Of a DNA stretch of 37,900 bases, positions 11,064-37,900 are shown piece by piece (position 1 is the stretch's first letter; every line of letters starts with the position of its first letter). The notes under the pieces are model-generated. The model searched no databases, was not told where the DNA came from, and saw nothing but the letters and a program-made list of their open reading frames with translations. Made by a program: the position numbers and the translations under genes. The stretch is taken from assembly GCA_019359355.1 (NCBI GenBank), contig JAHHHM010000038.1:1-37900 (forward strand), read 5' to 3'. This stretch comes from Microcoleus vaginatus WJT46-NPBG5 (GTDB taxonomy: Bacteria > Cyanobacteriota > Cyanobacteriia > Cyanobacteriales > Oscillatoriaceae).

Positions 11064-11134
11064 AGTTTTGAATTTTGATTTTTGAGTTTTGAGTCGTGAT
11101 TTCATTCAAAACTTAAAACTCAAAACTCAAAACT
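11064..11134. repeat. Inverted arrays of heptamer repeats between rplR and rpsE
   Basis: At 11064-11091 there are four tandem 7-mers close to AGTTTTG, and at 11107-11134 four tandem 7-mers CAAAACT/TAAAACT, the complementary unit. The two arrays face each other around a 15-base centre, so the transcript could form a long hairpin in the rplR-rpsE gap. This is a short tandemly repeated repetitive element of the kind seen in filamentous cyanobacteria. Confidence 0.8.
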
Positions 11135-20916: not shown

Positions 20917-21522
20917 ATGCTGGAAAACCGTGACTATACCTTAATTATTGATAAAAGCGGGAGTATGTCCACGAAAGATCAACAGGGAGGTAAAAGTCGC
21001 TGGGTTGCGATGCAGGAGTCTGCCCTGGCTTTAGCAAGTAAGTGTGAGGAATTTGACCCCGATGGATTGACAGTTTACCTGTTTTCGGGCCGATTTAAAC
21101 GCTACGACAACGTTACATCCAGTAGAGTCTCGCAGATATTTCAAGAAAATGAGCCTTCTGGAAGAACTGATTTAGCCGGCGTCTTGGTTGATGCGCTTAA
21201 CAGTTATTTTCAACGCAAAGCAGCCCGTCAGACTAAATCCAATGGGGAGACTATTTTGGTGGTGACAGACGGGGAACCGGATGATCGCAAAGCCGTGATG
21301 AAAGTCATCATTGAAGCGTCTCGTCGGCTGGATCGCGATGAAGAATTGGCAATTTCGTTCGTGCAAGTCGGTACAGATGCCACTGCGACTCAGTTTCTCA
21401 AAGCGCTGGATGACGATCTGCAAGGTGCCGGCGCGAAGTTTGACATTGTCGATACTATCACAATGGATGATATGGAAGATCTGACCCTGACAGAAGTATT
21501 GCTCAATGCCATTATTGATTAA
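20917..21522 (+). CDS. vWA-domain protein, copy 1
   Basis: A 201-residue protein that is one von Willebrand factor A domain from end to end. The metal-ion-dependent adhesion site is complete: DKSGS (Asp12, Ser14, Ser16), Thr84 in GRTDL and Asp118 in TDGEPDD. It should bind a divalent metal and a partner protein. There is no signal peptide or membrane segment, so it is cytoplasmic. Small soluble vWA proteins of this kind occur near stress genes such as the ter system, but no terD-like gene is visible here, so the role is unknown. ATG start with GGGGAG about 12 bases upstream. Two paralogues follow at 22462 and 23246. It is probably co-transcribed with the Slr1339-like gene 196 bases downstream. 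Confidence 0.88.
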   Translation: MLENRDYTLIIDKSGSMSTKDQQGGKSRWVAMQESALALASKCEEFDPDGLTVYLFSGRFKRYDNVTSSRVSQIFQENEPSGRTDLAGVLVDALNSYFQRKAARQTKSNGETILVVTDGEPDDRKAVMKVIIEASRRLDRDEELAISFVQVGTDATATQFLKALDDDLQGAGAKFDIVDTITMDDMEDLTLTEVLLNAIID

Positions 21523-21718
21523 GGGCATCTACTCAAGGAAGCATTTAGCCGGCAGCCACTGAAAACCGTGCCGGCAGAAGACGTGAAACTGGGGAATGAT
21601 TCTGAAGCGCCAGAAACCCTCGAGTTTTCACCCCTCACTGTTGATTCCTGATAGCTGAATGCTTGCTGCTCAATATCATTGTTGCAACGGTTGTTAAAAA
21701 CCTTTAGGGGTTAAATGT

Positions 21719-22333
21719 ATGGAATCGATAGAGCGCTTATTAGCTGACGTTAGAACAGAATATCAGAGTTCTGTGGAGCCGGCAGAACCAAAAACACTCA
21801 CTGACTTAACTGCACAACCCTCGACAGCTTCGGCTGCAAGCGAAAACGTATTGCTCAGCAATTTCGCTACTTTACCGGAAGATAACTTATTAGCAGAACT
21901 TAAGCGCGAGTATGAAGAGACAAATGCTCTAAGTTCTGTGAAGCCGGCAAAATTAAACGTACTGCCTAACTTAACGGAGGAAATTTTTGTATTCCCGCAA
22001 CTCTCATCACCTACTATACACGAAAACGGGTTGCTAAACAATTTTGTTTCCTTACCAGAAAATAACTTATTAGCGGAACTTAAAGGTGAGTACGAGGAAG
22101 AAGCCAAAGCTGAGGAACAGAAAAGACAGCAACAGCTTAAAGAAGAACAGATCCGCCAACAAAAGCTAAAACAGCAACAGCAGGAAGCCATCAGCAAACA
22201 AGCGCAAGCTTGGTTAAAAACCTTAGATCCTCTGTCAGATGAAGGACTCTGGTTTGAAGAGTTTGCTTATAAATATCCTTCAAAACAAGAGGCGGCGATT
22301 GATTATTTGCAAGCTTTGCAACAAACCCCATAA
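21719..22333 (+). CDS. Slr1339-like hypothetical protein (putative salt-stress family)
   Basis: A 204-residue soluble protein of unknown biochemical function. The C-terminal block at 157-200 (AQAWLKTLDPLSDEGLWFEEFA, then YPSKQEAAIDYL) resembles the cyanobacterial family named after Slr1339, described as salt-stress related; this is recalled, not searched. A coiled coil rich in Gln, Lys and Glu spans about 126-162. The motif LLA-x4-EY occurs three times, at residues 7-15, 57-65 and 117-125. The last two sit in a 60-residue internal repeat (SNFATLPEDNLLAELK and NNFVSLPENNLLAELK). The linkers are rich in Thr, Ser, Pro and Ala and are probably disordered. It lies between vWA copies 1 and 2, suggesting a functional link with them. 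Confidence 0.75.
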   Translation: MESIERLLADVRTEYQSSVEPAEPKTLTDLTAQPSTASAASENVLLSNFATLPEDNLLAELKREYEETNALSSVKPAKLNVLPNLTEEIFVFPQLSSPTIHENGLLNNFVSLPENNLLAELKGEYEEEAKAEEQKRQQQLKEEQIRQQKLKQQQQEAISKQAQAWLKTLDPLSDEGLWFEEFAYKYPSKQEAAIDYLQALQQTP

Positions 22334-22339
22334 AAGCGA

Positions 22340-22370
22340 TTTTAGAAAATTGAAATCTGAAAATCTAAAA
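22340..22370 (+). terminator. AT-rich hairpin after the Slr1339-like gene
   Basis: TTTTAGA (22340-22346) and TCTAAAA (22364-22370) form a 7-bp stem about 7 bases past the stop codon. It is AT-only and may be a weak terminator or a decayed heptamer element. Confidence 0.3.
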
Positions 22371-22447
22371 TTGCTTCGGGATTGTTAGGAAAGTGGGATA
22401 GGCTAGATCCACAAGCCATAATAACACAGGAGGTTTTCTCTTGATAA

Positions 22448-22455
22448 AAGGAGGT
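22448..22455 (+). promoter_or_regulatory. Shine-Dalgarno site fixing the vWA copy 2 TTG start
   Basis: AAGGAGGT lies 6 bases before TTG 22462. A second GGAGG lies about 20 bases further upstream, before TTG 22441, so both starts could be used; alignment with the paralogues favours 22462. Confidence 0.65.
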
Positions 22456-22461
22456 AATACT

Positions 22462-23064
22462 TTGGAAGCTCGTGATTACACATTAATCATCGATAAAAGC
22501 GGCAGTATGTCTACGCCAGAGCAGGCAACTGGCAGAAGTCGTTGGGATACGGCACAAGAATCTACTCTGGCACTCGCACGCAAATGCGAGCAATTTGACC
22601 CGGATGGAATTACAGTGTACTTGTTTTCAGGCAAGTTTAAACGCTATGAAAATGTAACTTCTAGTAAAGTTGCACAGATTTTTCAAGAAAACGATCCATC
22701 AGGTACAACAAATCTGGCTGCTGTTTTACAAGATGCCACCAGTAACTACTTAAAGCGTAAAGCAGGAGGTCAAACAAAAGCCAATGGCGAAACAATTTTA
22801 GTCATAACAGATGGAGAACCCGATGATCGCAGGGCGGTGATGAAGGTAATTATTGATACCTCCCGTCAAATGGAGCGAGATGAAGAATTGGCGATCTCAT
22901 TTATTCAGGTTGGCAATGATCAAACAGCGACTCGGTTTCTTAAAGCTTTGGATGATGAATTGCAAGGTGCCGGCGCGAAATTTGATATTGTCGATACAGT
23001 CACCCTGGATGATATGGAAGGGATGACTTTAACAGAAGTGCTGCTCAATGCTATCGCAGACTAA
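22462..23064 (+). CDS. vWA-domain protein, copy 2
   Basis: A 200-residue single vWA domain, paralogous to copies 1 and 3. The metal site is DKSGS (Asp11, Ser13, Ser15), a Thr in the GTTNLA loop and the Asp of ITDGEPDD. I start at TTG 22462 (MEARDYTL) because AAGGAGGT lies 6 bases upstream and the protein then aligns end to end with its paralogues. An alternative TTG at 22441, behind another AGGAGG, would add seven residues containing the ribosome-binding site itself. It differs from the other copies around SNYLKRKAGG and IDTSRQMERDEE. No signal peptide is seen. Confidence 0.87.
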   Translation: MEARDYTLIIDKSGSMSTPEQATGRSRWDTAQESTLALARKCEQFDPDGITVYLFSGKFKRYENVTSSKVAQIFQENDPSGTTNLAAVLQDATSNYLKRKAGGQTKANGETILVITDGEPDDRRAVMKVIIDTSRQMERDEELAISFIQVGNDQTATRFLKALDDELQGAGAKFDIVDTVTLDDMEGMTLTEVLLNAIAD

Positions 23065-23245
23065 CTCGCCATGAATTCTTTGATTAATTCTCCAAATCAG
23101 TAATTTATACAAGGACGGGTTTTAAGCCAAATGAACTTTCGATAAGAAAGCTAATGTCCTAAACCCGTTCTTACCGGCAGCCAGATCAGGATTTTAGGGA
23201 ATCCCCTTCACTCATTGCTAACAACTAACACTTGAAAGGGCAATT

Positions 23246-23854
23246 ATGGCATTAGAAAATCGGGATTTTACATTAATTATTGATAAAAGCGGCAGTATGT
23301 CTACCCCAGATCAGGCAGGTGGCAGAAGTCGTTGGGAAGCAGCGCAAGAGTCTACTTTGGCACTTGCGCGCAAATGCGAGCAATTTGACCCGGATGGAAT
23401 TACAGTTTACCTATTTTCCAGCCGATTTAAACGCTACGAAAATGTAACTTCTAGTAAAGTTGCACAGATTTTTCAAGAAAACGATCCTGCCGGCACAACA
23501 AACCTCGCCGCTGTGCTGCAAGATGCAACAAATCAATATTTTCAGCGTAAAGCAGCGGGACAGATAAAAGCCGGCGGAGAAACTATTTTAGTGGTGACAG
23601 ATGGGGAACCCGATGATCGTAAAGCCGTGATGAAAGCCATTATTGAAGCATCTCGCCGGATGGATCGCGATGAAGAACTTGGCATTTCTATCATACAAGT
23701 CGGATCGGACGCCACCGCCAGCCGATTTTTAAAGGCATTGGATGATGAATTGCAAGGTGCCGGCGCGAAATTCGATATTTGTGACACGATTACCATCGAT
23801 GATATGGCAGATATCACCCTAGCAGAAGTGCTGCTCAGCGCCATTAATGATTGA
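23246..23854 (+). CDS. vWA-domain protein, copy 3
   Basis: A 202-residue single vWA domain. The metal site is DKSGS (Asp13, Ser15, Ser17), the GTTNLA threonine and VTDGEPDD. The N-terminus MALENRDFTL resembles copy 1. The segment from ESTLALARKCEQ to QENDPAGTTNLAAVLQDAT is nearly copy 2. The stretch QYFQRKAAGQ through VVTDGEPDDRKAVMK and IIEASRRMDRDEEL is closer to copy 1 again, so the gene looks mosaic. A Cys at FDICDT is unique to this copy. It is the last of the set and is followed by a strong hairpin at 23939-23980. Confidence 0.88.
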   Translation: MALENRDFTLIIDKSGSMSTPDQAGGRSRWEAAQESTLALARKCEQFDPDGITVYLFSSRFKRYENVTSSKVAQIFQENDPAGTTNLAAVLQDATNQYFQRKAAGQIKAGGETILVVTDGEPDDRKAVMKAIIEASRRMDRDEELGISIIQVGSDATASRFLKALDDELQGAGAKFDICDTITIDDMADITLAEVLLSAIND

Positions 23855-24526: not shown

Positions 24527-27500
24527 ATGTCAAGCTCACAAGCAGTCCAAGAACGTACTGACGATTTAGATGAAAAGCAGTTATTAAGAACACTCGCCGC
24601 TGTTAAGAAAGGGGACTTTTCTGTGCGAATGCCCCTCGACCAAACCGGCATGGCGGGTAAAATTGCGGATACGCTCAACGACATTATCGAACTCAATGAA
24701 AGGATGGCCGCCGAATTAGATCGGATCGGCACCGTTGTTGGGAAAGAAGGTAAAATTACCCAGCGGGCATCACTAGGAAACGCCGGCGGTTCTTGGACAG
24801 CAAGCGTTAATTCTGTCAATACCCTGATCACAGATTTAGTCCAACCTACAGCCGAAACTGCTAGAGTAATTCGGGCCGTCGCAAATGGCGATTTATCCCA
24901 AAAGATCGCACCCGAAATAGAAGGCCGGCCCCTAAAAGGAGAATTCCTTCAAACCGCCAAAATTGTTAACACAATGGTGGATCAGCTCAGTTCCTTCGCC
25001 TCAGAAGTGACACGGGTGGCGCGAGAAGTCGGTTCAGAAGGGAAATTAGGCGTGCAAGCCGAAGTTCAAGGCGTGGCCGGCACCTGGAAAGATTTAACCG
25101 ATAGCGTTAACTCAATGGCCGGTAACTTAACCGCCCAAGTCCGAAATATTGCCGAAGTCACGACCGCTGTTGCTAATGGGGATCTGTCTAAGAAAATTAC
25201 GGTAGATGTAAAAGGGGAAATTTTAGAGCTGAAGAACACCGTCAACATCATGGTGGATCAGCTCAACTCGTTTGCCTCGGAAGTAACACGGGTGGCGCGA
25301 GAAGTCGGTTCGGAAGGGAAATTAGGCGTACAAGCAGAAGTTCGAGGCGTTGCCGGCACCTGGAAAGATTTAACAGATAGCGTGAATTTCATGGCCGGCT
25401 CATTAACCGCCCAGGTGCGGAATATTGCCGAGGTGACGACGGCTGTAGCTAACGGGGACCTTTCTAAGAAAATCACCGTAGATGTTAGAGGGGAAATTTT
25501 AGAGCTGAAAAACACGATTAACATCATGGTGGATCAGCTTAACTCCTTTGCCTCGGAAGTGACGCGGGTGGCGCGAGAGGTGGGAACCGAAGGGAAGTTA
25601 GGCGTACAAGCGGAAGTGCGAGGGGTAGCCGGCACCTGGAAAGATTTAACCGATAGCGTTAACTCAATGGCCGGCAATCTCACAGCCCAGGTGCGGAATA
25701 TCGCGGAAGTGACAACGGCTGTAGCTAACGGCGACCTTTCTAAGAAAATTACGGTAGACGTAAAAGGTGAAATTTTAGAGCTGAAAAACACCATAAATAT
25801 CATGGTGGATCAGCTCAACTCCTTCGCCTCGGAAGTGACGCGGGTGGCGCGAGAGGTGGGTTCGGAAGGGAAATTAGGCGGTCAAGCAGATGTTAAGGGG
25901 GTAGCCGGCACCTGGAAAGATTTAACGGATAGCGTTAATTTCATGGCCGGCTCGTTAACTGCCCAAGTCCGAAATATTGCGGAAGTGACGACGGCTGTTG
26001 CTAACGGCGACCTCTCGAAGAAAATTACGGTAGACGTAAAAGGTGAAATTTTAGAGCTAAAAAACACCATAAACATCATGGTGGATCAGCTCAACTCCTT
26101 TGCCTCGGAAGTGACGCGGGTGGCGCGAGAGGTGGGTTCGGAAGGGAAATTAGGTGTACAAGCGGAAGTGCGAGGGGTGGCCGGCACATGGAAAGATTTA
26201 ACGGATAGCGTTAACTCAATGGCCGGTAACTTAACCGCCCAGGTGCGGAATATTGCCGAGGTGACGACGGCTGTCGCGAACGGGGATCTGTCCAAGAAAA
26301 TTACGGTTGACGTAAAAGGTGAAATTTTAGAGCTGAAAAACACCATAAATATCATGGTGGATCAGCTCAGCTCGTTTGCCTCGGAAGTGACGCGGGTGGC
26401 GCGAGAGGTGGGAACTGAAGGGAAGTTAGGGGTACAAGCGGAAGTTCGAGGCGTTGCCGGCACCTGGAAAGACTTAACCGACAACGTGAACTCAATGGCC
26501 GGCAACCTGACAGCCCAGGTGCGGAACATTGCCGAGGTGGCAACCGCAATCGCAAATGGCGACCTCTCCAAGAAAATTACGGTACAGGTGAAAGGTGAAA
26601 TTTTAGAGCTGAAGAACACGATCAACGTCATGGTGGATCAGCTCAGCTCGTTTGCCTCGGAAGTAACACGGGTGGCGCGAGAGGTGGGTTCGGAAGGGAA
26701 ATTAGGCGGCCAAGCGGATGTGCGAGGCGTCGCCGGCACCTGGAAAGACTTAACCGATAGCGTGAATTTCATGGCCGGCTCATTAACCGCCCAAGTGCGA
26801 AACATTGCCGCTGTTACGACGGCTGTTGCAAATGGCGACCTTTCTAAGAAAATTACGGTTGACGTAAAAGGTGAAATTTTAGAGCTGAAAAACACCGTCA
26901 ACGTCATGGTAGACCAGCTCAACTCCTTCGCTTCAGAAGTAACGCGGGTGGCGCGAGAGGTGGGAACCGAAGGGAAATTAGGCGTACAAGCGGAAGTCCG
27001 AGGCGTTGCCGGCACCTGGAAAGACTTAACCGATAGTGTGAACTCAATGGCCGGCAATTTAACCGCCCAAGTTCGCAACATCGCGGAAGTGACGACGGCT
27101 GTCGCTAATGGCGACCTTTCTAAGAAAATTACGGTAGATGTAAAAGGTGAAATTTTAGAGCTGAAAAACACCATAAACATCATGGTGGATCAGCTCAGCT
27201 CGTTTGCCTCGGAAGTGACACGGGTGGCGCGAGAGGTGGGAACCGAAGGGAAATTAGGGGTGCAGGCGTATGTTAAGGGGGTTGCCGGCACCTGGAAAGA
27301 CTTAACCGACAACGTGAACTCAATGGCTGGCAACCTGACAGCCCAGGTGCGGAACATTGCCGAAGTGACGAAAGCGGTTGCAAATGGCGACCTTTCTAAG
27401 AAGATTACCGTTGATGTCAAAGGCGAGATTTTGGAGCTGAAAAACACGATCAACGTCATGGTGGATCAGCTCAGCTCGTTTGCCTCAGAAGTAACGCGGG

Positions 27501-30500
27501 TGGCGCGAGAAGTCGGTTCGGAAGGGAAATTAGGCGGTCAGGCAGATGTTAAGGGCGTCGCCGGCACCTGGAAAGACCTTACCGACAACGTGAACTCAAT
27601 GGCCGGCAATCTGACAGCCCAAGTGCGAGGCATCGCTCGCGTGGTGACGGCAGTTGCGAATGGCGACTTGAAGCGAAAACTGATGCTAGAGGCAAAGGGG
27701 GAAATTGAAACCTTAGCCGACACGATCAACGAGATGATCGACACGCTCGCAACGTTTGCGGATCAAGTTACCACCGTGGCGCGAGAAGTGGGTATTGAAG
27801 GGAAACTAGGCGGTCAGGCCAAAGTGCCGGGTGCTGCGGGAACCTGGAGGGCGCTGACAGACAACGTGAACGAACTGGCCGCGAATTTAACCACCCAGAT
27901 CCGAACGATTGCTGAAATTGCGACCGCCGTGACAAAGGGCGATTTGACCCGAACGATTAACGTCCAAGCCGAAGGTGAGGTGGCCGTCCTTAAAGACAAT
28001 ATCAACCAGATGATTGCCAACCTGCGAGAAACAACGCAGAAAAACACTGAGCAAGACTGGTTGAAGACCAATTTGGCTAAGTTTACGCGGATGCTACAGG
28101 GCCAGCGAGACTTGGAGACGGTTTCCAAACTCATCCTCTCAGAATTGGCTCCTTTGGTTTCCGCCCAACATGGCGTGTTCTACCTGATGGAAGCCGGTGT
28201 CACGCATCAACCCTATTTGAAACTCCTCAGCACTTATGCTTACCGCGAGCGCAAGCATCTGGCGAATCAGTTTCACATGGGTGAAGGGTTAGTCGGACAG
28301 TGTGCCTTGGAGAGGGAACGAATTCTGCTAACTGAGGTGCCGAATGACTATATCAAGATCAGCTCTGGGTTAGGGGAATCAACGCCGCTCAATGCCGTTG
28401 TGCTGCCGGTGTTGTTTGAGGGCCAAGTGACGGCGGTGATTGAATTAGCCTCGTTCCGGCGCTTTAGTGAGATTCATCTGACATTCTTCGATCAGCTCAC
28501 GGAAAGTATTGCCATCGTGCTCAATACAATTGCTGCCAGTATGCGGACTGAGGAATTACTCAAACAGTCCACAGCACTGGCAGAAGAACTGCAAACCCAG
28601 CAGAAAGAATTGACAGAGACGAACAAGCGATTAGAACAGCAAGCTCAATCGCTCAAAGCCTCTGAAGAACTGCTGAAAAACCAGCAGGAACAGCTACAGC
28701 AAACCAACGAAGAACTCGAAGAAAAAGCGCGGCTGCTGTCCGATCAAAACCGGGAAGTTGAACGCAAGAATGGCGAAATTGAACAGGCGAGACAGTCTGT
28801 GGAGGAAAAAGCCGAACAGTTGGCGCTCACTTCTAAATACAAGTCAGAGTTTTTGGCGAATATGTCGCACGAGTTGCGGACGCCGCTCAATAGCTTGTTA
28901 ATTTTAGCCCGACTGCTTTCAGATAACGCCGAGGGCAATCTTAGCCCCAAGCAGGTGGAATACACCCGCACGATTCATTCTGCCGGCACCGATCTGCTGG
29001 GGTTGATTAATGACATCCTCGATTTGGCCAAAATTGAATCAGGAACCATGTCAGTGGAAATTGATCCGCTGCTGTTTACAGATTTGTCAAACCAGATGGA
29101 GCGAACATTCCGTCAAGTCGCCCAGGATAAGGGCTTGAGCTTCAGCCTTGTTTTTGATGAGAAACTGCCGAGGGCAATCTATACCGACTCGAAACGCTTG
29201 CAGCAAGTGCTGAAAAATCTGCTCTCCAACGCCTTTAAATTTACAGACTCTGGAGAGGTGCGGTTGCGAGTAGAGCAGGCCACTCAGGGATGGAGTGCTG
29301 AGCAGGAAACATTAAATCGCGCCCAGACTGTCGTTGGTTTCTCTGTGATGGACACCGGCATCGGCATCGCCCCCGAAAAACAAAAAGTCATTTTTGAAGC
29401 GTTCCAGCAGGCAGATGGCACAACCAGCCGCAAATATGGCGGCACCGGCTTGGGCTTGTCTATCAGCCGCGAAATCGCCCGACTCCTCGGCGGAGAAATT
29501 GTCTTAGTTAGCAGCCTCGGCAACGGCAGTACCTTCACGCTCTACTTGCCCCTGACCTATATGCCGCCGGTGAAACCTCCCAAGCCAGAAGAATTGCACT
29601 ACCTGTCGCTGGATCGGCGGGATTCCGACGGGGGGCGTAGCAGCAATCTTTCACAATTGCGGCCGTGGAATCCAGACAAGCGTAAGGAGGAAGCCCGGTT
29701 GCTTCGCCCCGCGAGTACGGAGAATTCTACCTCCAACGGCTCTCCAGACTCAGAATTCGTGCAAGGGTTCAACAACGATCCTTCCTCCTTAGCGTTCTCG
29801 CAGCAACTAAGTGACGATCGCGATAATATTCAACCCGACGATCACGTGCTGTTGATTGTGGAGGATGACATGAACTTCGCGCGTATCCTCTTAGATCTGG
29901 CACGACAAGTCGGGTTTAAAGGGCTTGTGGCGTTGCGTAGCGAAACCGGCTTGACAATGGCCCAGGAACTTAAACCCCATGCCATCATGCTCGATATCCG
30001 GCTGCCAGGAATGGACGGCTGGACGGTTCTTGATCGCTTAAAGCATAACCCGGCAACCCGTCATATCCCGGTTCATATCCTCACGGTTGAGGCGGCGCGG
30101 CAGCGGGGGTTGAAAATGGGAGCGCTGGCTTATCTACAGAAGCCTGTTAGCAGCGAGGCGCTGCTTGAGGGGTTGGTGAATATCAAACGTTTTGTTGAGC
30201 GTCCGGTGAAGAACTTGCTGGCAGTGGTTGTTAACGAAAATCAGCGTCAAAATATTGTCGAATTGATCGGCAACAGCGATGTCGCCACCACTACAGTGGG
30301 AACGGGTGAGGAGGCGCTCTCAGCTCTAAGGGCAGGGACAACTGATGCTGTAGGCCGGCCCTACGATTGTGTCGTCATCGATTTGGATCTACCTGATATG
30401 AGCGGGTTGGAACTGATTGAGCAGATCACTCAAGAGTTTACCGCCGGCTCAGGCGCTGTTGTCCCTATGCCCATTATCGTTTACACCCAGAAAACCTTAA

Positions 30501-31048
30501 CTGAACAGCAAACATTTGAACTCAAGCGGATTTCTGAAAGCATCATCATTAAAGCCTTGAGTTCGCCAGAAAGCCTGTTTAATGAAACCGCTTTGTTCCT
30601 GCACCGGGTTCAAGAGAATTTGCCCGAACCCAAACGGCAGATGCTGGAAAAGCTGTATCAAATAGACCCGCTTCTGATTGGCAAAAAAGTCTTAATCGTA
30701 GATGACGATGTCCGCAATATCTTCGCGCTAACCAGTATGTTAGAGCGCCATCAAATGCACGTCTTAAATGCCGAAAACGGGTCTGATGGCATTTCTAAGT
30801 TGCAAACAATACCGGACATTGATGTTGTCTTGATGGATGTGATGATGCCAACAATGGATGGGTATGAAACCATGCGCCGTATCCGCAAAATTTCTAAATT
30901 CCGCTCTCTCCCGATCATCGCCCTCACGGCTAAAGCCATGAAAGGTGATCGGGAAAAAAGTTTGGAAGCCGGGGCATCTGACTACATTACCAAGCCGGTT
31001 GATACTGAGCAGTTGCTCTCGCTACTGCGGGTCTGGCTTTATCAGTAA
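24527..31048 (+). CDS. Giant poly-HAMP hybrid histidine kinase with GAF and three receivers
   Basis: A 2173-residue soluble protein without membrane segments. Order: two diverged HAMP-like segments at about 15-149; eleven 92-residue HAMP units at 150-1161 (first ten nearly identical, each with [19 protein letters not shown] and ANGDLSKKI; the eleventh diverged); a GAF domain at about 1190-1340; a coiled coil at about 1345-1440; HisKA with phosphoacceptor His1448 in [10 protein letters not shown]; and the ATPase domain with N, DTGIGIAP and [10 protein letters not shown] boxes. Three receivers follow: Asp1823 ([10 protein letters not shown]), Asp1952 ([10 protein letters not shown]) and Asp2104 ([10 protein letters not shown]). 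Receiver 2 has a weak acidic pocket (VVVNENQ) and may not be phosphorylated. The architecture resembles fungal group III kinases (Nik1/Os-1), which sense osmotic stress through HAMP repeats. The ligand is unknown here. The next gene is a receiver 97 bases downstream. Confidence 0.93.
24974..28009 (+). repeat. Eleven in-phase 276-bp tandem repeats encoding HAMP units
   Basis: The ATG of the ATGGTGGATCAG unit start recurs at 24974, 25250, 25526, 25802, 26078, 26354, 26630, 26906, 27182 and 27458. Diverged ATGATCGAC and ATGATTGCC follow at 27734 and 28010. Every interval is exactly 276 bases, so no indel has been tolerated across eleven units. Units 1-10 are highly similar at DNA level; unit 11 is clearly older. 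The array accounts for nearly half of the kinase gene. Confidence 0.95.
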
Positions 31049-31144: not shown

Positions 31145-31534
31145 ATGTCTCACGTTTTATTAGTTGATGATGAAGAACCACTTCGGGCTAGTCTCACGTT
31201 TTCTTTAGTGCAAGAAGGCTATAAAGTGGTGACAGCAGGAGATGGGCTAAGCGCACTAGAAATGGTAAAACAAAAAGTGCCAGATATTATTATTTTGGAC
31301 TTGATGTTACCGGGAATGGATGGAATGGAACTTTGCTGGCGCATTCGCGCTTTCTCAGATGTTCCTATCCTGATTTTGACTGCCAAAGATCACGATGCAG
31401 ACAAAGTTTGGGGATTAAAAGCCGGCGCAGATGATTATCTCACCAAACCTTTTAACACTCGTGAGCTGATCGCCCGAATTGAAGCTATCTTGCGCCGGTG
31501 TAGCCGCAGCCCACATTCTTCACAAACAAAATAA
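31145..31534 (+). CDS. Stand-alone response-regulator receiver (OmpR-like, no output domain)
   Basis: A 129-residue protein that is one receiver domain. It has the acidic pair in LLVDDEE (Asp8, Asp9), the phosphoacceptor Asp in ILDLMLPGMDG (about residue 52), Thr in ILTAKD and the Lys of YLTKPF. The GADDYLTKPFNTRELIARIEAILRR segment is typical of OmpR-class regulators that continue into a winged helix, but here the frame stops after CSRSPHSSQTK. I looked in all three frames of the next 250 bases and saw no winged-helix remnant. It may be a true single-domain regulator acting by protein contact, or a regulator that lost its DNA-binding domain. Partner kinases lie on both sides. Confidence 0.9.
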   Translation: MSHVLLVDDEEPLRASLTFSLVQEGYKVVTAGDGLSALEMVKQKVPDIIILDLMLPGMDGMELCWRIRAFSDVPILILTAKDHDADKVWGLKAGADDYLTKPFNTRELIARIEAILRRCSRSPHSSQTK

Positions 31535-31792: not shown

Positions 31793-33199
31793 ATTCGGAT
31801 AAAATGGAATTCCATTCACGCCAAACTTTTAGCCACTTACCTGGGGCTAACTGCACTCGGTACATCGCTCCTAGCCGGCTACCTTTTGTGGGCTTTCCAC
31901 GCCTCTTTCATGAAAACAAAACAGGCAGAATTAGAGACCTGGTCTATCCCTTTGAGCGAAAGCGTAGCGGATGCGCTTGAAGACAACGATTTGAGGCAAG
32001 TAAAATTGCTTGTAAAACGCTACGGTGCACCCGAAACTATCAATCTGCGAATCTTTGGGCCAGAAGGTCGCCTCTTGTCTACCTCGTCTCCACAAATAGA
32101 TTGGCAAATAAAAGATTGGTTAGAGATTCCAGGCGTTAGGCAAGGACTTCAAAACAAGCGGGTGCTAGGCTTTGGCAAAGGTGTTCTTTCAAACGATGAC
32201 AGAGTATTCGCCGTGCAGCCACTAAACCGCAATGGTCGGCTGATCGGTCTTTTGCGGATGTCTCTAACCCTCACTCAGTTCCAACGCCAATTTAGAACGA
32301 TCATTTCTACGGTTCTGGGAACCCTGATCTTAACGTTCTTACTTTGTGCTGCAATTAGCTTATGCCTCGCTCGCAGCATGGCAACGCCGATCCAAGCCAT
32401 GTCCCGATTTGCCGTGCGCCTTGGCAGTGGTCATTTAGGTGAGAAGCTCAACATCTTTGGCAGCGATGAACTAAGGCAATTAGCCATTGAATTGAACCGG
32501 ATGAGCGAACGGCTGGCTTCACTCGATAATGAACGGCGAGCGTTCCTGGCAAATGTATCTCACGAACTCCGCACTCCCGTTAGCAATGTTACAGTGACCC
32601 TGGAAGCCCTAGAAAGAGGAGCTGCTGAACAACCGGAGTTACGCGCCCGGTTTATCCGAACTGCACAGGATGAGACAGTGCGCCTGTCGCGGCTAATCCA
32701 AGATTTGCTGGATTTAGGCCGGCTCGAAGCCGGTGTTGTTCATTTGGAGAAGCAACCTTTGAGCCTTCAATATCTGATCAACCGAGCGGTGGGTGCAATG
32801 GAACTACGGATGCAATCCAAAGGAATGAGTATCCAGCAAGATATGCCCGACGTACAGATACAAGGCGATCCAGAACGCTTACTCCAAGCTTTTTTAAACA
32901 TCCTCGATAATGCATTTAAGTACTCCGTTTCAAACTCTAAAATATTTGTTTCTGCGCGAGTAGAAGGCTCTAAAGTTGCTGTACAAATCCGAGATCAGGG
33001 AGCAGGGATCAGCGAAACCGATCTCCCCCATATTTTTGAAGAGTTTTATACAGCCGATTCCTCTCGCAAGAAAGGTGGAACCGGCTTGGGACTAGCCATT
33101 GCTCGGCGTATTGTTGTAGCCCACGGAGGAAACATTAGCGTTCACAGTAAAGCGCCTGAAGGAGCAGTATTTACGATTTTCCTGCCCCTCACTTCTTAA
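31793..33199 (+). CDS. Membrane sensor histidine kinase with HAMP domain, likely AUU start
   Basis: A two-transmembrane sensor kinase of about 468 residues. From the proposed AUU it reads MRIKWNSIHAKLLATYLG and a first membrane helix (about 12-35). A periplasmic loop (about 36-165), a second helix around STVLGTLILTFLLCAAISLCLA and a HAMP linker follow. HisKA has phosphoacceptor His257 in NVSHELRTPV. The ATPase domain has the N box FLNILDNAFKYS, DQGAGISETD and GGTGLGLAIARRI. The longest frame with a usual start begins at TTG 31886, inside the first helix, and would truncate it. The strong AAGGAGGT at 31777 instead supports ATT 31793. A sequencing error is the alternative. It lies 258 bases after the lone receiver, its most likely partner. 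Confidence 0.85.
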   Translation: MRIKWNSIHAKLLATYLGLTALGTSLLAGYLLWAFHASFMKTKQAELETWSIPLSESVADALEDNDLRQVKLLVKRYGAPETINLRIFGPEGRLLSTSSPQIDWQIKDWLEIPGVRQGLQNKRVLGFGKGVLSNDDRVFAVQPLNRNGRLIGLLRMSLTLTQFQRQFRTIISTVLGTLILTFLLCAAISLCLARSMATPIQAMSRFAVRLGSGHLGEKLNIFGSDELRQLAIELNRMSERLASLDNERRAFLANVSHELRTPVSNVTVTLEALERGAAEQPELRARFIRTAQDETVRLSRLIQDLLDLGRLEAGVVHLEKQPLSLQYLINRAVGAMELRMQSKGMSIQQDMPDVQIQGDPERLLQAFLNILDNAFKYSVSNSKIFVSARVEGSKVAVQIRDQGAGISETDLPHIFEEFYTADSSRKKGGTGLGLAIARRIVVAHGGNISVHSKAPEGAVFTIFLPLTS

Positions 33200-33407: not shown

Positions 33408-35087
33408 ATGCAAGCCGACCCAAAAGTTAACATTCTCCTCGTTGACGACCATCCCAAAAACTTGCTGGCCTTAGAGGCCATCCTGGAAGGACTCGGTCAG
33501 AATTTAGTCAAAGCCCAATCTGGCGAAGAAGCCTTAAGATGTCTGCTGCATCAAGATTTTGCTGTTATTCTGCTTGATGTCCAAATGCCAGGGATAGATG
33601 GATTTGAGACAGCAACGCTGATTAGAGAAAGACAGCGGACGCGGCTCACCCCGATTATTTTTCTAACAGCATTTAGCAAAAGCGATTCATTTGTATTTCA
33701 AGGTTACTCTCTGGGGGCGGTGGATTACCTGTTTAAACCCATTGAACCAGAAATCTTAATCTCTAAAGTTTCAGTATTTGTTGACCTGTTCAAGAAGACA
33801 GCAGAAGTCAAAAGACAAGCCGAAGAAATTTCCAGCTTAAATTCAGACCTAGAACAACGAGTCCTGGAACGAACCGCCCAACTAGAAGCGGCAAACCGGC
33901 TCAAAGATCAATTGTTAAGAAGCGAACAAGCAGCACGGGGGCAAGCTGAATCTGCAGAACAGCGTTTTCGCGATTTAGTCAATGGTTTAGGTCACGCAAT
34001 CTTTTGGGAAGCCGATCCCTTCACTGAAAAATTTACATTTGTCAGCCAAAGTGCTGAGCAAATTCTGGGCTATCCTCTAGACAAATGGACAGAGGAACCA
34101 GATTTCTGGCTGAGCCTTTTCCATCCCGATGATCGCGACTGGGCGCAAGCTTTTGCGCGAACGGAAACCCTTGCCGGCAGAGATCATCAGTTTGAATATA
34201 GATGTGTGGCAGCAGATGGTCAGCTACTGTGGTTGCGAAACAGAGCTTATATTGTGCGCGATCACGAAGGCGCTGTCATGAAGGTGCGAGGGCTGATGAT
34301 TGACATCACTGAAGCCAAACAAGCACAGGAAACACTTTCAGCGCGCGCAGAGGAACTAGCCCGCTTGACGATTGTGCTGACGCAGACGAACACGGCTTTG
34401 GAGAAACGCAACCAGGAACTCGATCAGTTTGCTTATGTGATCTCCCATGATTTGAAAGCGCCACTGCGAGCAATTGCTAACCTCTCACTGTGGCTGGAAG
34501 AAGACTTGGAGGACAAGCTGAGTGAGGATACGCAACACCAAATGAATCTACTGCGAGGGCGCGTGCATCGCATGGAAAATTTAATTAATGGTATCCTCGA
34601 ATACTCCCGGGTGGGGCGCTTGAAGACGGAGTTAGAAACGGTCTCTGTTGAGGCAATCCTTAAAGATGTGATCGATTCTCTCGCCCCGCCACCCGCGTTT
34701 ACGGTTGAAGTTGGCCCTGGAATGCCAACGTTAAAAACCTCGCGGTTGCTTTTAGAGCAAGTCTTTTCTAATTTGCTCAGTAATGCCATCAAGCACCATG
34801 ATCGCCCTGATGGTTGTGTGAAGATTGCGGTTGAAGAGAAAAAAGATTTCTATGAGTTTTCTGTAGCCGATGATGGGCCGGGGATTGCGCCCCAATATCA
34901 CGAGCGAGTGTTTGTCATTTTTCAAACGCTACAATCACGCGATACGACAGAGAACACCGGCATTGGGTTGTCTTTGGTCAAGAAAATTGTTGAAAGTGAA
35001 GGGGGCATGATCTCTATAGACTCTCAAGAAGGTCAAGGGACAGCCATTCGCTTTACGTGGCCAAAGATCGGCAAGAAAACGGAATAA
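33408..35087 (+). CDS. Receiver-PAS-histidine kinase (phytochrome-type kinase core)
   Basis: A 559-residue soluble signalling protein. An N-terminal receiver (about 7-125) has the acidic DD at 13-14, phosphoacceptor Asp57 (LLDVQMPG) and a Lys in FKPIEPE. A coiled coil at about 130-185 contains ERTAQLEAANRLKDQLL. A PAS domain with PAC tail spans about 185-305 (FTFVSQSAEQILGYP, LFHPDDRDWA, RGLMIDITEAKQAQE). A second coiled coil leads to HisKA, with His347 in YVISHDLKAPLRAIANL, the type common in phytochrome-like kinases. The ATPase domain has FSNLLSNAIKHH, DDGPGIAPQYHERVF and GIGLSLVKKIV. An N-terminal receiver suggests control of the kinase by an upstream phosphorelay. No membrane segment. The start ATG 33408 has no clear GGAGG. 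Confidence 0.92.
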   Translation: MQADPKVNILLVDDHPKNLLALEAILEGLGQNLVKAQSGEEALRCLLHQDFAVILLDVQMPGIDGFETATLIRERQRTRLTPIIFLTAFSKSDSFVFQGYSLGAVDYLFKPIEPEILISKVSVFVDLFKKTAEVKRQAEEISSLNSDLEQRVLERTAQLEAANRLKDQLLRSEQAARGQAESAEQRFRDLVNGLGHAIFWEADPFTEKFTFVSQSAEQILGYPLDKWTEEPDFWLSLFHPDDRDWAQAFARTETLAGRDHQFEYRCVAADGQLLWLRNRAYIVRDHEGAVMKVRGLMIDITEAKQAQETLSARAEELARLTIVLTQTNTALEKRNQELDQFAYVISHDLKAPLRAIANLSLWLEEDLEDKLSEDTQHQMNLLRGRVHRMENLINGILEYSRVGRLKTELETVSVEAILKDVIDSLAPPPAFTVEVGPGMPTLKTSRLLLEQVFSNLLSNAIKHHDRPDGCVKIAVEEKKDFYEFSVADDGPGIAPQYHERVFVIFQTLQSRDTTENTGIGLSLVKKIVESEGGMISIDSQEGQGTAIRFTWPKIGKKTE

Positions 35088-36801: not shown

Positions 36802-37900
36802 ATGGCTTTTTTCGATGACTTCTCAAGTGCTTTAAAACAAAAGTGGTTGCAATATTACCAAGCCAATCATGACTGGCTGAGCCTGCATATCAAAGTGGCA
36901 GCCGTTAAAACCCCCGATGGTGGCAGACGCCCCACTTCTTACTTCATCCTGGGCGCGATGAATGCGCTAGAACCCAAGCTAGCGCAGTTGATGCTGCCCT
37001 TTTCTAAGCTAAATCCCGATGCAGAAACCCTGATAGAAGTGTTGGGGTTGAACTTCGATCCAGACATCGCACTCGGTAATACCCCAATCGGCGAACCGGC
37101 AGCTTATGAAGAGCAACTGACATCCACATCCATCTCGGCATCGGCACCTATTAGCCCAGCTACCGAAAACTTAGATGAGTTAACGGGTGTAAACATGGGC
37201 GTACCTTTGGCAGCCGTTGCCGGTGTTGGCGTGCTCGGTGTAGCCGCCGCAGTGGCAATGATGGAAGACACCACCGATGACTTTGATGAAGACTTACCCG
37301 ATGATGAATTGGGCGGGATGGGTCTCGGTGGCTTGGCAGAGTCTACCCCTGACTTTGATGAAGAGTCTTCCGACGATGACGATCTGGTGGATATGGGGCT
37401 TGATGCGCTCGATGAAGAATCTTCGGATAACTTCGCGGGGGTGGCTGTTGCTGACTTCGGGGAAGACATATCCGATGATGAGCTAGGTGGCATCGGCCTT
37501 GATGAGCTTGATGAAGACTCTTCTGATGATTTCGACGCAGCGGCTCCCGCCGGCTTTGATGACGATACATCCGATGATGAGCTAGGTGGCATCGATCTTG
37601 ATGAGTTGGGTGAAGAGTCCATTAATAACTTTGGGGCGGCGGCTGTCACTGGCTTTGATGACGATACATCCGACGATCTCGATGATGATATGGGCTTGGG
37701 CGCTCTCGATGACGATTCCACCGATGCGTTTGGAGCAGCCGTTTCCGACGATCTCGATGATGATATGGGCTTGGGCGCTCTCGATGACGATGCCACCGAT
37801 GCGTTTGGAGCAGCCGTTTCCGACGATCTCGATGATGATATGGGCTTGGGCGCTCTCGATGACGATGCCACCGATGCGTTTGGAGCAGCCGTTTCCGACG
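36802..37900 (+). CDS. DUF5331-like protein with acidic repeats (3' end outside window)
   Basis: The frame is open for 366 codons to the window edge, so it is partial at its C-terminus. The N-terminal 95 or so residues (MAFFDDFSSALKQKWLQYYQANHDWL and FILGAMNALEPKLAQLMLPF regions) resemble DUF5331, a cyanobacterial domain I recall beside chlL and chlN. A hydrophobic stretch at about 132-154 (MGVPLAAVAGVGVLGVAAAVAMM region) could be a membrane helix. Beyond it the chain is Asp/Glu-rich, with units around DDELGGIGLDELDEDSSDDF and then exact 25-residue units DDLDDDMGLGALDDDATDAF plus GAAVS. The acidic tail may be disordered or bind cations. Function is unknown; position suggests a link to the protochlorophyllide reductase. 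ATG start with GGGGGA about 10 bases upstream. Confidence 0.8.
   Translation, partial: MAFFDDFSSALKQKWLQYYQANHDWLSLHIKVAAVKTPDGGRRPTSYFILGAMNALEPKLAQLMLPFSKLNPDAETLIEVLGLNFDPDIALGNTPIGEPAAYEEQLTSTSISASAPISPATENLDELTGVNMGVPLAAVAGVGVLGVAAAVAMMEDTTDDFDEDLPDDELGGMGLGGLAESTPDFDEESSDDDDLVDMGLDALDEESSDNFAGVAVADFGEDISDDELGGIGLDELDEDSSDDFDAAAPAGFDDDTSDDELGGIDLDELGEESINNFGAAAVTGFDDDTSDDLDDDMGLGALDDDSTDAFGAAVSDDLDDDMGLGALDDDATDAFGAAVSDDLDDDMGLGALDDDATDAFGAAVSD
37671..37900 (+). repeat. 75-bp tandem repeats encoding an acidic 25-residue unit
   Basis: The CGACGATCTCGATGATGATA unit start recurs at 37671, 37746 and 37821, and begins again at 37896, exactly 75 bases apart. The last two full units appear identical, and the first differs at one visible base (GATTCC versus GATGCC). 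Older, diverged units extend back to about 37260. The array runs off the window. Confidence 0.93.

Follow-up and report, generated by a model that had tools for sequence, protein, structure and literature searches.

An ordered poly-HAMP hybrid histidine kinase of Microcoleus vaginatus and the array lengths of its relatives

Introduction

Fungal group III histidine kinases possess one receiver and are not known to carry a GAF domain. HAMP domains are said to have been surveyed by Dunin-Horkawicz and Lupas in J Mol Biol in 2010. In the fungal group III proteins Nik1, Os-1, Bos1 and CaNik1p, N-terminal repeats of about 90 residues, five to six per array, are described as preceding a kinase and a receiver, and the repeats of CaNik1p as HAMP pairs 92 residues long (PMC3848655). 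Three bacterial proteins, AskA and AskB from Myxococcus xanthus and Amb07 from Sorangium cellulosum, have likewise been described as group III-like poly-HAMP hybrid histidine kinases, with a kinase domain, several receivers (Rec3 is named for AskA) and an N-terminal poly-HAMP stretch that exceeds the one in NIK1 (PMC7643160). Stacked HAMPs are known also from the soluble chemoreceptor Aer2 (3LNR), for which the structure of three concatenated HAMPs has been described (PMC3570549). A literature search, with most subscription journals outside its coverage, found no publication on long HAMP arrays in cyanobacteria.

The kinase described here is encoded in a stretch of 37,900 nucleotides (the window) of contig JAHHHM010000038.1 from Microcoleus vaginatus WJT46-NPBG5. 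As far as the published descriptions allow comparison, it resembles AskA, AskB and Amb07 in its poly-HAMP N-terminus, kinase domain and several receivers; as a difference, these proteins are described as acting in development and as mediating a response to ambruticin (PMC7643160). A GAF domain is present in the window kinase and is not mentioned in the main text on the three proteins (PMC7643160). Long arrays occur outside this genome too, the poly-HAMP region of AskB being reported to exceed that of NIK1. Compared with the fungal members, the window kinase possesses twelve repeats rather than five to six (PMC3848655) and carries a GAF domain and three receivers; the likeness drawn here is one of layout. 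It shares with Aer2 the stacking of HAMPs in a soluble protein, whereas Aer2 is a chemoreceptor, described with no histidine kinase core (PMC3570549).

Results and discussion

Domain structure of the kinase

The following features of the kinase gene were identified.

24527..31048, forward strand: poly-HAMP hybrid histidine kinase, a single intact ORF with an ATG start, 2173 aa
24563..24943, forward strand: divergent N-terminal HAMP segments (GDF at residue 29, GSW at 88, GDL at 121), limits approximate
24944..27979, forward strand: eleven 92-residue (276-bp) HAMP units, residues 140-1151, by motif spacing and a unit HMM
27884..28024, forward strand: last A-type HAMP, running into GAF, limits from the unit register
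28103..28522, forward strand: GAF, residues 1193-1332 (PF13185, GAF_2, 1.6e-17)
28841..29044, forward strand: HisKA, with the H-box SHELRTP at residue 1447, by Pfam and motifs
29186..29557, forward strand: HATPase_c with N, G1 and F/G2 boxes, by Pfam and motifs
29843..30184, forward strand: receiver 1, with acidic pair, Asp and Lys motifs, by Pfam and motifs, limits approximate
30215..30586, forward strand: receiver 2, without the usual N-terminal acidic pair (VVNEN), by Pfam and motifs, limits approximate
30689..31027, forward strand: receiver 3, canonical, by Pfam and motifs

Pfam identifies HAMP in 11 stretches and HAMP_2 in 12, together with GAF_2, HisKA, HATPase_c and three Response_reg domains, and finds no other domain ahead of the N-terminal HAMP segments. 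The protein possesses the consecutive HAMP domains by which poly-HAMP proteins are defined. With group III (Nik1-type) kinases it shares the roughly 92-residue repeats at the N-terminus, the HisKA and HATPase domains, a receiver at the C-terminus and the absence of a transmembrane segment. No membrane helix could be discerned in the 2173 residues, because the highest mean Kyte-Doolittle hydropathy of any 19-mer is only 1.68 and falls inside GAF. Its sequence places the protein among the group III-like (poly-HAMP) hybrid histidine kinases of bacteria, a kind already known. A preliminary description of this DNA had read in it eleven units at exact 276-bp spacing, a GAF domain, a kinase core and three receivers, in a soluble Nik1-like layout without a membrane anchor and with an array longer than the fungal ones; motif spacing, Pfam, hydropathy and the published fungal repeat numbers agree with all of this, and what it left uncounted is the divergent front unit.

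The tandem array extends over 24974-27627 with a period of 276, 9.6 copies and 0% indels. Thirteen GDL/GDF motifs, characteristic of A-type HAMP, alternate with 12 GTW/GSW motifs of the B half, and the latter occur at residues 88, 185, 277 and so on to 1105, spaced by 97 residues once and then by 92 ten times. The array is therefore counted as 12 units, eleven of 92 residues and the front unit of 97. This front unit is only 30-33% identical to the others. Units 1-9 are 85-99% identical among themselves in protein and 77-90% in DNA, unit 10 shares 76-85% protein identity with them, and unit 11 shows 57-62%; the earlier wording of nearly identical units is thus apt for the protein of most units but not for the DNA. 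None of the 11 B segments matches a Pfam HAMP model at E <= 1, the hhalign profile comparison of the A half with the B half returned a probability of 4.6, and the best stretch of the NCBIfam Aer2 model on the kinase is residues 998-1086. By analogy with the pairing published for CaNik1p, the B half may be a second HAMP (PMC3848655).

As the longest exact in-register repeat within the array is 61 bp, reads of at least 100 bases should resolve the copy number, and collapse of the array during assembly is unlikely. Two PDB entries, both of a histidine kinase fused to Gcn4p, match the N-terminus of the kinase: 9trk over residues 8-294 (E 2.4e-128) and 9trj over residues 8-202 (8e-79). Their chain contains N-terminal HAMPs only and provides a solved structure of a close N-terminal relative. 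An AlphaFold model of residues 1-295 made without an alignment had a pLDDT of 41, and the Foldseek list derived from it is meaningless. The Pfam SpoIIID model scores 34.2 bits over the whole kinase with no single stretch passing, which is a sum across the repeats on the HAMP units. AskB has been described with 11 SpoIIID-like matches overlapping its HAMPs, and partial SpoIIID/HTH matches are reported on the HAMPs of AskA, AskB and Amb07 alike (PMC7643160); these may arise through the same summing.

Distribution of related kinases

A fragment of the array matches 33 of 386 genomes of the phylum at E <= 1e-20, its own genome included. The last unit together with GAF matches 101 of 388 genomes of the order at E <= 1e-80, the weakest of these matches being frames near 1200 aa that represent paralogs without an array, and the last unit with GAF matches 136 of the 217 genomes of one family (f33) at E <= 1e-120. 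Cyanobacterial carriers include Nostoc, Fischerella, Calothrix, Microcoleus and Trichocoleus, and the nearest named sequence to the window kinase in the tree is from Trichocoleus sp. FACHB-40. Across phyla, relatives were taken from the best 80 of at least 516 confirmed stretches. Among the matches listed, they belong to Cyanobacteriota, Myxococcota, Planctomycetota and a Chloroflexota MAG, the further carriers being Polyangium, Myxococcaceae MAGs, Paludisphaera, a Melainabacteria MAG and the Chloroflexota MAG, and cut-off pieces of arrays are found in an Armatimonadota MAG and others.

Age and order of the array

Both congeners examined (G001 and G002) carry the array with 13 units, against 12 in the window. 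Unit-by-unit DNA identity of 87-95% traces the window array onto the congener arrays, with one position absent.

25219..25220, forward strand: site of the missing position 2 (numbered 0-12) relative to both congeners, by comparison with 13-unit arrays

By this alignment, the window copy corresponds to the common 13-unit form with position 2 lost. Its array differs from that of G002 with dS 0.35 and dN 0.003, while the inner units of the window array differ among themselves with dS 0.73 and dN 0.041; the array is older than the split from G002, because the dS between inner units exceeds that between orthologs. Its units are moreover tied to their positions. Several columns (counted from 0) hold position-specific residues in 44 thirteen-unit arrays. 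Column 39 in unit 10, for instance, is Tyr in 42 of 44, and column 70 in unit 8 is Ala in 38 of 44. A residue profile, from which arrays above 90% kinase identity were excluded, placed 425 of the 484 inner units at their own position, where 1 in 11 would be expected. These 44 arrays are largely from Nostoc and its kin, and the depth of conservation beyond them rests on fewer arrays. Position-profile scores are 248-367 for arrays of other phyla and 642-1023 for cyanobacterial ones.

The preliminary description had proposed a recent local expansion of a short array, a reading that draws on the 85-99% protein identity of units 1-9. It is at odds with the excess of paralog over ortholog dS, with the 13 units of both congeners and with the conserved order of the units, and is rejected here as highly improbable, provided that the arrays of the congeners are themselves correctly assembled. 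The sequence comparisons show an array that is both old and ordered and on which purifying selection acts strongly, rather than one freshly duplicated; the ordered array appears older than the genera that carry it.

Two other readings were considered and dropped. Concerted evolution was the first interpretation of the DNA matrices; it was abandoned because amino acid profiles gave positional identity. Between families the DNA signal is saturated, with a pS of 0.75 in the single pair compared. A strict three-unit repeat in the DNA was weak: a period-3 excess at p<0.05 occurs in 6 of the 44 arrays with thirteen units and 2 of the 27 with ten, and in none of the 13 with twelve.

Array length and three-unit steps

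The new part of the finding is the pattern of array lengths. Among 189 distinct arrays, 85 possess 13 units and 52 possess 10, followed by 12 units in 21 and 11 in 10, and the rarer lengths are 7 (6 arrays), 8 (5), 6 (4), 9 (3) and 5 (3). The set was obtained from 262 ORFs by setting aside 23 and merging 50 near-identical ones, a merge based on the first 520 residues with no count mismatch reported. In smaller sets, 14 ORFs were set aside and 3 merged, and 20 of 182 were set aside (truncated, frameshifted or irregular in unit step) and 24 merged; in this 182-ORF set the counts of a near-identical pair disagreed once (L167/L168). Because the 80 loci fetched from family f33 were mostly those with non-13 frame lengths first, non-13 arrays of this family are over-represented among the 189. 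On contigs of at least 1 Mb, picked by hand from tables (n=50), the lengths are 13 in 27 arrays, 10 in 14, 12, 7 and 5 in two each, and 6, 8 and 11 in one each. The clustering of lengths at 13 and 10 is solid.

The suggestion in the preliminary description that the path is length-tuned finds partial support in the dominance of these two lengths. It had also looked for a unit number that varies among close strains with kinase and receivers constant, and the number does vary among close relatives (12 in the window, 13 in the congeners), whose kinase and receivers are unchanged; the recurrence of 13 in many distant cyanobacteria is what it had named as the sign of an old fixed architecture.

The changes in length were placed by parsimony on a tree of the region behind the array, which requires 48 changes, 18-20 of them by three units, 12-13 by one and 4-7 by two; the trees are quick searches, and that of 189 rows was built without a mixture model. 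In 45 independent sister contrasts the difference is three units in 18, one in 13, two in 6, six in 4, four in 2 and five in 2. Multiples of three make up 22 of the 45 against an expected 22-28% (P 0.00006 to 0.0024). The null of 0.22-0.28 supposes that deletions follow the exact DNA tracts common to two units, and is the share of such tracts found at lags 3 and 6 in arrays of 13 units. The idea of steps of three was formed on the first 96 arrays, so these P values are not independent of it. The earlier loci alone give 13 of 21 (P 0.0001-0.0012), and contigs of at least 1 Mb give 8 of 12 contrasts by three or six. The window array's own change is of one unit, not three.

These steps might mean that the rod is length-quantised, being built of unit triads with 3k+1 units (13, 10, 7) and with CheR/CheB methylation in about one third of relatives. 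Units would then not be interchangeable, three of them would restore the phase of the rod, and exact three-unit blocks would be lost repeatedly; linked CheR and CheB would methylate, and so further tune, the rod in about a third of relatives. This full picture is doubtful. Recombination between units spaced by three could produce the excess as a mere side effect, or the excess could be chance in a pattern noticed in these very data; this reading stands only a little short of an even chance. A three-unit alternation of residue types does exist, and at lags 3 and 6 the exact-tract shares are 0.17-0.21 and 0.05-0.07, respectively. The excess falls to 11 of 25 (P 0.012-0.064) in loci added after the idea was formed and to 10 of 22 (P 0.012-0.061) in closer pairs, and 3 of the 18 differences by three do not map to a single contiguous stretch. 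On the other side, exact-tract shares at lags 1 and 2 are larger than at lag 3, yet two-unit steps number 6 of 45 against 18 of 45 for three, and the missing blocks of the other 15 differences lie at varied places between sister pairs (positions 2-4, 4-6, 6-8). A rule of triads is suggestive, the excess being moderate and weaker in the genomes added later.

Neighbouring genes

Three further signaling genes follow the kinase in the window.

31145..31534, forward strand: stand-alone receiver between the kinases, by Pfam and motifs
31886..33199, forward strand: HAMP histidine kinase, 437 aa, TTG start as listed, by ORF list and Pfam
33408..35087, forward strand: REC-PAS-histidine kinase, by Pfam and motifs

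The stand-alone receiver is followed by two stop codons, and there is no long frame in the three frames until the next gene. The arrangement recalls that of askB, where a second kinase gene, askC, is described directly downstream; AskA, AskB and AskC are reported to bind one another in vitro (PMC7643160). Of the 117 array genes for which 4 kb of sequence beyond the gene was available, 71, the window included, are followed by a receiver similar to that of the REC-PAS kinase (at least 58% identity), and in 46 none was found within the scanned 6.5 kb or less downstream.

CheR lies directly 3' of the array kinase in 46 of 132 loci and CheR with CheB in 43 of 129 (query locus included), the Chloroflexota MAG being among the loci with CheR downstream. 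Pfam identified both genes in two loci (L089:13756-15345 and L155:6434-7896). CheR is absent downstream of the window kinase, the rest of the genome holds nothing closer to the CheR query than matches of 31-33%, and the window contains no linked CheR/CheB pair of the chemosensory adaptation type. Seven of the 117 array genes have a CHASE3-HAMP region encoded downstream. Its kinase in Fischerella muscicola PCC 7414 also possesses GAF and three receivers; a CHASE3-HAMP-GAF kinase of this build, with three receivers and next to the array kinase, lies at L153:13599-17237. Judged from domain content, the CHASE3 neighbour is a kinase with a similar transmitter and an exchanged input.

Upstream of the window kinase are three TerF-like vWA genes (20917-23854); of 124 array genes (3 kb flank), a TerF-like match occurs upstream solely in the window, the two congeners and a further genome (G003). 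Other genes in the window, NdhN and a NifH/frxC-family neighbour, fit a cyanobacterial origin. Short arrays of seven-base tandem repeats are found at 11106, 14868, 15789, 16201 and 18553, and the contig ends inside a 75-bp tandem repeat (37669-37900, 99% matches), probably an assembly break.

Possible mode of action

The explanation that best covers these results, and which is probably correct, is an old, ordered poly-HAMP kinase in which the rod serves as input and lengths of 13 or 10 units are preferred. Two chains would pair in parallel, with the stacked HAMPs making up a single long rod. Each of them could adopt either of two packings, coupled to its neighbours through shared helices, and the state of the rod would set kinase versus phosphatase output through GAF and a coiled coil, as deletions in fungal Nik1 suggest. 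Candida CaNik1p without its HAMPs, when present in baker's yeast, is described to activate Hog1p and inhibit growth (PMC3848655). By analogy, the array may hold the kinase in one state, and a partner or cell conditions that alter the packing may switch it. Because no other N-terminal domain is present, the input role would fall to the rod, together with anything that binds to it. The likeliest candidate for a partner or relay is the REC-PAS kinase, 2.4 kb downstream. Selection would keep the order of units and hold the length near 13 or 10.

An unlikely alternative is that GAF is the real sensor, with the HAMP stack acting as a spacer or assembly scaffold whose length matters little. GAF does sit between array and kinase, arrays down to 5 units occur with the same kinase, and the paralog with CHASE3 and a single HAMP retains GAF, kinase and three receivers. 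A plain spacer would, on the other hand, need neither the very low dN of the array nor its position-specific residues, and lengths cluster at 13 and 10.

The wider meaning lies in the family. Kinases built like Nik1, which is targeted by fungicides, occur across several phyla of bacteria. The natural length series, from 5 to 13 units on the same kinase and with conserved unit identities, offers a direct test of phase and coupling models, and the passage of a signal through stacked HAMP domains is a question that this family of arrays can address.
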